Source: Brachyspira murdochii DSM 12563 | GTDB taxonomy: Bacteria; Spirochaetota; Brachyspiria; Brachyspirales; Brachyspiraceae | Direction of reading: 5' to 3' | Length of the DNA: 64,000 bases | Assembly: GCF_000092845.1 (NCBI RefSeq) | Contig: NC_014150.1 | Span: 496,001-560,000, forward strand | Part shown: one piece after another, positions 23,251 to 24,698 of the stretch | Layout: every line of letters starts with the position of its first letter | Position numbering within the stretch: position 1 is the first letter of the stretch | The notes under the pieces: model-generated | The model's input: only the letters and a program-made list of their open reading frames with translations | What the model was told of the DNA's origin: nothing | The model's database searches: none | Position numbers and translations under genes: made by a program

Positions 23251-24393
23251 TCAGCTCCATTTTTTGTATGTAACCAAAGTAGGATCTTCAACTTGTTTAG
23301 GGAAATAATCCTCACAAGAACCTTCTCTGTAAACATCAGCAGTAGCACAATGCAAACCGCCTCCAAATGGATAAGCATCTCTAAATGGTACTGGTATAAC
23401 ATTCATACCAAGTTTATCCATCTGTTCCAACTGATGTACTTCGCTTGCTTCTACCAATACTGTTTTATGGTCTAATACCAAACAGTTCATAGAAAGCCAA
23501 ACACTTGAATAACAAAGAGGAGGAGGAGTTTCATGTGCAGGCTGTGCAGCATCAACTATTTCCCAGCCATTAGCTTCAAATATTTTTCTTTGTTCTTCAG
23601 GAAGTTTTCTAGTAGGGTTATTAATTATCAAACCAGGTCTTAATGGTACAAATGTAGCATCAATGTGAATTGGATAAGGGTCTCCAGGGAAGTTTACAGC
23701 ATGTACTCTGAAATCTGGGTATTGTCTTCTTAACCATTCCATAGCTTTTCTGTTTGTTGTTAGTCCATGCTGACAGAATAAATCTTTACCTAATCTCATA
23801 ACATCAGCAGCATCAAAAAGTATTTCATGTTCAGTAGTTACCATATGAAGTTTAGCAGTTCTTTCAAGTAATACCTCTTCTGTTACATCGCCGTCAAAAT
23901 AATGCATATCATAACTAGCATCGCCAAGTTCCGGACGAGGTGCTGATATCCATCTGAAATCAGGATCTTCATCAAAATATTTTCTAAGTATTGGTGAATA
24001 AGCTAAATACTCAAAATATCTTGATCTGAATGACATAGGTGCTGCTATTATATCATTACCTATAGTAAGAAGTACATCTCTAGGAGGCATACAGCCGAAC
24101 ATACTTCCAGTCATAAAATGAGGTGTTACAACAGCCTGATTCCATTGAAGAGGAGTAGGTCTGTCAACTTTTACTCCATGCTGTTCTAATATTTTACAAA
24201 GATTATCTAACTGAGCATTTGCTTTTTCTACTGTATCTAAAGGTCTTGGACCTGTCATACCTCTCATAGGGCTGTTTAAAGGTACTTTAGCTTTAGATGC
24301 AGGTTCAGATGGAGCTATACAGCAGTTGTCAGCTCTTCCTACTATAACATGTTTTAACGGGTCAAAATCATTCCACGAATTAACGATTTTCAT
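23251..24393 (-). CDS. Glycine/inosamine-type amidinotransferase
   Basis: A 380-aa member of the amidinotransferase family that moves an amidino group from arginine to an amine acceptor (glycine in AGAT, inosamine phosphate in StrB). The catalytic triad is intact: Asp in LFDAADVMR (194-197), His243 in HIDATF and the nucleophile Cys349 in GGGLHCATADV. The full protein is unusually Pro/Met/Arg-rich for this window, which may reflect transfer or strong conservation. AAGGAG lies nine bases before the ATG. It is preceded by a 271-base leader with a small ORF and a terminator-like hairpin. The acceptor substrate is not determined by sequence; creatine-type, guanidinoacetate or another guanidino product are options. 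Confidence 0.85.
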   Translation of the reverse strand: MKIVNSWNDFDPLKHVIVGRADNCCIAPSEPASKAKVPLNSPMRGMTGPRPLDTVEKANAQLDNLCKILEQHGVKVDRPTPLQWNQAVVTPHFMTGSMFGCMPPRDVLLTIGNDIIAAPMSFRSRYFEYLAYSPILRKYFDEDPDFRWISAPRPELGDASYDMHYFDGDVTEEVLLERTAKLHMVTTEHEILFDAADVMRLGKDLFCQHGLTTNRKAMEWLRRQYPDFRVHAVNFPGDPYPIHIDATFVPLRPGLIINNPTRKLPEEQRKIFEANGWEIVDAAQPAHETPPPLCYSSVWLSMNCLVLDHKTVLVEASEVHQLEQMDKLGMNVIPVPFRDAYPFGGGLHCATADVYREGSCEDYFPKQVEDPTLVTYKKWS

Positions 24394-24504
24394 ATTGAGA
24401 AATCTCCTTAAATATTTATTACGATTTTTTTATTTATTAAACTAATAATATTTTAAAAAAATAATATTATTATGATATTTCTTTAGAAAACTAATTGAAC
24501 TTGT

Positions 24505-24535
24505 AAAAAAGATAAAATCACCTCAATAGAGATGA
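24505..24535 (-). terminator. Terminator-like hairpin overlapping the leader ORF stop
   Basis: On the minus strand TCATCTC pairs with GAGGTGA over seven positions (one G-U) around a TATT loop (24518-24535), then TTTTATCTTTTTT follows. The right arm contains the leader ORF stop codon, so a ribosome at the end of that ORF would open the hairpin. Confidence 0.6.
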
Positions 24536-24580
24536 AATAGGATAAGAAAACTTTTTTGCTTTTGGTTTGAGATTTTTCAT
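24518..24580 (-). CDS. 20-residue leader peptide ORF
   Basis: The ORF encodes MKNLKPKAKKFSYPISSLLR and stops with TGA. AGGAG lies eight bases before the ATG, better than most genes here. The peptide is strongly basic (seven Lys, one terminal Arg) and has no recognised family. The final codons are CTA TTG AGG TGA; AGG is uncommon among the Arg codons used in this window, where AGA dominates. It lies 124 bases before the amidinotransferase start. A regulatory role (ribosome position controls the overlapping hairpin) is inferred; an expressed micro-protein is an alternative. Confidence 0.6.
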   Translation of the reverse strand: MKNLKPKAKKFSYPISSLLR

Positions 24581-24670
24581 TATCAATACTCCTATTGATT
24601 ATCAAAAATAATGATATTAAAGAATAATCAATAATTAGAAACATATAAACAATAGTATTTATACTGAAAG

Positions 24671-24698
24671 ATTATATATTTTTTATTATTTTTGTCAA
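24671..24698 (-). promoter_or_regulatory. Consensus promoter of the amidinotransferase leader
   Basis: On the minus strand a perfect TTGACA (24693-24698) and a perfect TATAAT (24671-24676) are separated by 16 bases. Transcription should begin near 24664, giving a leader of about 270 bases. Confidence 0.75.

Follow-up and report, generated by a model that had tools for sequence, protein, structure and literature searches.

The window is a stretch of 64 kb out of the 3.24-Mb single-contig genome of Brachyspira murdochii DSM 12563. The leader and the gene considered here both lie on its minus strand, and every part named in a preliminary description of the leader (promoter, AGGAG, 20-codon ORF, 7-bp hairpin, U-tract) is present. 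The presumed regulated gene (23251..24393) encodes an amidinotransferase of 380 aa, similar to human arginine:glycine amidinotransferase (AGAT; E 3e-86 and 4.1e-86 against chains of the human enzyme). The alignment retains FDAAD, HIDATF and GGG.HC, which we take to carry the Asp, His and Cys of the active site; the protein has no match in Pfam or NCBIfam at E 0.001 or better. In vertebrates, AGAT is known for starting creatine synthesis from arginine. Relatives of the protein, 67-88% identical in the best segment, are found across spirochaetes, Bacillota, Actinomycetes and proteobacteria, which suggests transfer.

Some other AGAT loci carry features of their own. Selenocysteine insertion elements (RF01990) lie near AGAT at L028:4687-4724 and L033:5869-5906; the one of L028 is inside the gene just upstream of AGAT, by eye a glycine-reductase-type selenoprotein, hinting at a use of guanidinoacetate for glycine. 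The two AGAT copies of Tissierella creatinophila (L077, L080) have a common leader stretch, GCAGGT..ACGAT, with no Rfam match at the gathering score. The sequence TGGCAC-N5-TTGCA upstream of AGAT at L029 resembles a sigma-54 promoter.

The promoter of the leader is of the sigma-70 type, TTGACA-16-TATAAT (24671..24698); it had been called perfect and agrees with the consensus at 12/12 positions, and it is present in all six leader-bearing loci. It is followed by an 11-bp hairpin (24593..24633; minimum-energy fold) directly 5′ of the ribosome-binding site AGGAG (24589..24593), and by a leader ORF of 20 codons (24518..24580, ATG at 24580), which reads MKNLKPKAKKFSYPISSLLR and has counterparts at L010-L014. 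The ORF ends with AGG (Arg, 24523-24521) and TGA (24520-24518). Its 3′ half includes a C-rich, G-poor tract (24525..24550), which the composition at six loci marks as a possible Rho-loading site. The hairpin TCATCTC-TATT-GAGGTGA (24518..24535; -8.1 kcal/mol in the window) spans the last codons and the stop. Next comes the U-tract TTTTATCTTTTTT (24505..24517), the predicted 3′ end of a short transcript, kept in L010 and L011 and not in L012-L014. The genome has a tRNA-Arg with anticodon CCU, and AGG accounts for 52 of the 550 Arg codons of the window. Mutually exclusive stems around the AGGAG had also been proposed: the 11-bp hairpin ending at this site is predicted, its arms being invariant and its loop variable in three close relatives (the other group of leaders has a different hairpin there), but the competing pairing is not kept among relatives.

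The hairpin alone is modest evidence, since a terminator scan gives one site against 0.2 (sd 0.5) in shuffles. A 167-nt stretch of the leader folds no better than shuffles (z -1.06; 26/200 shuffles as good). The whole layout was searched for by a rule composed after the case had been seen: an SD-preceded ORF of 10-40 codons, its stop inside a terminator-like hairpin, the hairpin 30-300 nt upstream of a gene of at least 150 aa. This rule has one match in the 64-kb window and two in eight related Brachyspira loci (111,008 bases), both at the orthologous site. A pattern modelled on known leaders matches in 6/26 Brachyspira genomes, always at AGAT. An additional, AT-rich match of the leader pattern occurs in G018 (L023).

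The AGAT gene is found in nine of 41 genomes (25 of them Brachyspira, that of the window included), and all nine are Brachyspira. Six of the nine loci carry the leader; these six form two divergent groups, between which the AGAT genes are identical at only 64-68% of four-fold sites. In group A (the window, L010, L011), AGAT lies between an EamA transporter gene and pta, and the leader reads MKNLK[P/L]KAKKFSYPISSLLR. In group B, AGAT lies downstream of dapA-dapB, and the leaders read MKNKLINLFSYSSIFSILFLR (L012), MKNKLINLFSYSSILFLR (L013) and MKNKLINLFSYSSISSSLFLR (L014). Common to both groups are TTGACA-16-TATAAT, ATGAAAAA, TTTTCTTAT and TTGAGGTGA, plus AAGGAGATT of the AGAT gene. The shared word TTGAGGTGA is matched by 0 or 1 of 1000 shuffles per pair. 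Whole-leader local alignment between the groups (four pairs) gives scores reached by 3, 274, 242 and 536 of 1000 shuffles, clearly above shuffles in one pair of the four; this weak discrimination is due to the ease with which AT-rich sequence aligns. L012 and L013 differ in length by 9 nt, and the reading frame is preserved. Each of the six leaders has one arginine codon, and all end with Leu-Arg(AGG)-TGA. Phe-Ser-Tyr, encoded by TTTTCTTAT, is explained by neither codon nor hairpin; its conservation may stem from the C-rich tract, from pairing with the start region (in some folds) or from an arrest motif.

Group A has a 7-bp stem and the U-tract (-8.1, -4.7 and -8.1 kcal/mol, the second via a G-U pair). 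Group B keeps CCTC...GAGG in a stem of 4-5 bp (-4.9, -4.9 and -6.7 kcal/mol), without a close U-tract. A terminator scan of L012 and L014 found nothing and the layout rule had no match at the three group B loci (L086-L088), so the intrinsic terminator is assigned to the window's group only. Of the parts in the preliminary description, the ORF recurs at 6/9 AGAT loci, but the strong hairpin with U-tract, i.e. the intrinsic terminator, stands at 3/6 leader loci and is absent from the other three. At the level of sequence, the core common to the six loci is the promoter, the ORF, its AGG-TGA end, a short stem and a C-rich, G-poor tract. Other pairings were rejected. The C-rich arm can pair with the ribosome-binding site of AGAT at all six loci (-5.5 to -6.9 kcal/mol), which was judged unspecific (a pyrimidine stretch facing an SD). 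In L012 and L013 the leader SD can pair with the region of the stop, a pairing that L014 does not preserve (by eye). No ATG, GTG or TTG stands at a distance that would let GAGGTGA act as a second ribosome-binding site (by eye).

The three leaderless AGAT genes (L089, L090, L091) belong to an operon, OTC - carbamate kinase - AGAT - SSF transporter - arginine deiminase. Of 26 genomes, exactly these three encode arginine deiminase, and no leader precedes their OTC gene. The deiminase operon occurs only where the leader is missing; stand-alone, leader-bearing AGAT therefore goes with absence of this operon. Argininosuccinate synthase (argG) is encoded by 17/26 genomes, including that of the window, and is absent from two of the three group B genomes (G007, G015); no similar leader was seen by eye before argG at six argG loci from among these 17 genomes. 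Within the operon, AGAT working in reverse would ferment a guanidino compound, with ornithine recycled. At L091 (G021), an intergenic run of 17 G about 160 bases before the OTC start is a possible slippage (phase-variation) tract.

Thirteen AGAT loci were scanned with Rfam, and upstream regions were read for 21 of the 61 loci of AGAT relatives. Two Bacillota loci have a T-box riboswitch above the gathering score (L031:784-1038; L032:4680-4930), directly before AGAT and a further gene that, by eye, looks like the SSF transporter gene of that operon in Brachyspira. The specifier loop of both reads GAA-G-AGG-G, an apparent AGG specifier, i.e. arginine. The reading rule was tried on six other T-box loci, whose downstream gene products were named by eye. 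It is right in five: valine GUA (valS, twice), isoleucine AUC (ileS), serine UCC (serA-like; two tandem T-boxes with identical reading) and proline CCU (proS). The sixth (L134) has a two-base insertion, and its specifier is not readable. The loop is one base shorter in the Ser and Pro T-boxes; such spacing would give GAG (Glu) in L031 and L032, whose eight-base loop fits AGG. Seven of the 249 genomes of the order of L031 and L032 have AGAT, and T-boxes stand at two of their eight loci, these same sites. No Rfam family, RF00230 (T-box) included, reaches the gathering score in the window, nor in L012, L014 or L026. A T-box of the terminating type switches its gene on when the tRNA is uncharged (PMC11477304). 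The AGG T-boxes make arginine starvation the simplest signal for the Brachyspira leader too. AGAT should thus rise on uncharged Arg-tRNA in the two Bacillota, and probably also in Brachyspira, so the enzyme may supply arginine and not spend it. As regards arginine as the signal, which the preliminary description had proposed, the orthologues speak for it, but the leader itself offers a single Arg codon and no run.

Since the end of the leader, with its AGG, is embedded in a weak stop signal for transcription, the enzyme is probably turned on or off by the way in which ribosomes complete the leader. The leading interpretation, about as likely as not, is a ribosome-controlled transcription attenuator of AGAT with charging of the AGG-reading Arg tRNA as its most likely signal. 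The parts, their conservation pattern and the AGG T-boxes of the orthologues are observed; from them we infer that the leader is translated, that termination and stalling take place, what the signal is and in which direction the enzyme works. RNA polymerase would start at the perfect promoter and transcribe the leader, and a ribosome would read the 20-codon ORF. With plentiful arginine, the ribosome would complete the ORF and leave, the 7-bp hairpin would form and transcription would end near 24505. With Arg-tRNA in short supply, it would wait at AGG and cover both arms of the hairpin, and polymerase would continue into AGAT, whose product would then use ornithine and a guanidino compound to form arginine. 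A ribosome covers about 12 bases on its downstream side and over 15 on its upstream side. With the A site at AGG or UGA, this footprint would include both arms, so that a stall there would let polymerase pass. The hairpin would be free in an untranslated leader or after release of the ribosome, and also if the ribosome stalled earlier, at the lysine codons closer to the start.

The same geometry would serve an arrest peptide, a rather unlikely explanation, in which free ornithine, arginine or another guanidino or basic amino acid stops the ribosome at UGA. The stalled ribosome would mask the hairpin, and plentiful substrate would induce the enzyme, in the manner of SpeFL or TnaC. The forward AGAT reaction yields ornithine. 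Both Phe-Ser-Tyr and Leu-Arg-stop are conserved in the two groups, and the stop is UGA in six of six leaders although only 7/53 stops of the window are TGA. However, L013 departs by three residues from its close relatives L012 and L014 in the spacing between Phe-Ser-Tyr and the stop, which speaks against strict arrest. The leader has no Pfam match, the SpeFL family PF10940 included, albeit peptides this short score poorly. Starvation at AGG would give induction at low arginine and arrest by ornithine or arginine the opposite logic; the T-boxes of the orthologues point to tRNA charging and favour AGG starvation.

Control by Rho is also unlikely. Leader translation would cover the C-rich tract, and poor or early-ending translation would expose it to Rho; the intrinsic terminator of the window's group would be an added layer. 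This would account for group B, which has no terminator, and the genome has a rho gene. At all six loci, the 26 nt that end just before the G of TTGAGG contain 6-7 C and 22-24 pyrimidines. In the window, 26-mers with G=0, at least 6 C and at least 21 pyrimidines number 54 and 52 of 63974 per strand, by a criterion picked after the sequence was seen and with two of the six tracts containing a G. At about 23% C, the tract is poor in C by the standard of E. coli rut sites. For Salmonella speF, the Rho site proposed is a CU-rich stretch preceding the orf34 stop codon (PMC6386406). That the ORF regulates nothing, the small ORF and weak hairpin merely setting basal expression or encoding a small protein conserved by descent, is improbable: the weak leader fold, the chance-level alignment of three of four pairs and the only mildly unusual terminator-like hairpin agree with it, but the rule finds the layout a single time in the window and elsewhere at orthologues only, and both groups, despite their different chromosomal positions, retain the ORF ending and the hairpin partner.

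In its proposed working the leader is an attenuator, but it belongs to no named family. With the trp/his type it shares a short translatable leader with a ribosome-binding site, a presumably decisive ribosome position and, at three of the six loci, a terminator before the gene; it differs in having a single regulatory codon, placed last, where that type has a run, and in a ribosome that would mask the terminator itself. Membership of the trp/his type fails because there is no codon run and no antiterminator conserved among relatives. With tnaC it shares a UGA stop as a possible arrest point; no shared peptide motif was recognised, and termination in tnaC is Rho-dependent. The Arg T-box of L031 and L032 shares the gene family, the AGG code word and the proposed signal, but is a tRNA-binding riboswitch, an unrelated RNA without leader peptide. 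The speF leader of enterobacteria (orf34/SpeFL) shares an Arg codon before UGA, a CU-rich tract, a place in arginine/ornithine metabolism and a proposed coupling of termination to translation of the leader. Salmonella orf34 is described with Arg codons, a UGA stop, a CU-rich stretch and Rho control, and both arginine and ornithine affect it (PMC6386406); its last Arg codon, just before the stop, was shown not to mediate the control by arginine, which calls for caution in the present case. The window's leader differs by its 20 instead of 34 codons, the lack of paired Arg codons and of sequence similarity, its intrinsic hairpin and its target enzyme. The peptide has no DUF2618 (PF10940) match and lacks the HIRR core given in that paper (PMC6386406).

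An arginine attenuator is supported by a leader kept in two groups, always with the same Leu-Arg(AGG)-TGA end and alongside a CCU tRNA, by a terminator-like site in the window and both close relatives, and by absence of the leader from the three loci with AGAT inside an arginine deiminase operon. It is weakened by a hairpin and U-tract limited to three close relatives, by a single Arg codon in a leader that is not unusually structured, by the conserved Phe-Ser-Tyr, which codon sensing leaves unexplained, and by the last Arg codon of the Salmonella speF leader, which is not the sensor there (PMC6386406). The layout is real, specific and partly conserved; the case for control by arginine is good but circumstantial. 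The putative mechanism is not uniform across the genus, and the locus probably adds a further member to a known class of switches. Searches of the open-licence literature showed no paper describing a leader attenuator in Brachyspira or a T-box ahead of AGAT.

More tentatively, bacterial AGAT-type enzymes may be an arginine supply line, the amidino group of an imported guanidino compound being transferred to ornithine. Control by Arg-tRNA would then have been gained twice through unrelated RNAs using the same AGG: in Bacillota through a T-box, and in spirochaetes whose linked deiminase operon is lost or missing through a one-codon leader attenuator. If true, spirochaetes would gain a leader-peptide attenuator for arginine, the minimal need of such a device would be one codon beside the stop and inside the terminator, and the regulation would argue that AGAT can serve arginine acquisition in gut bacteria.
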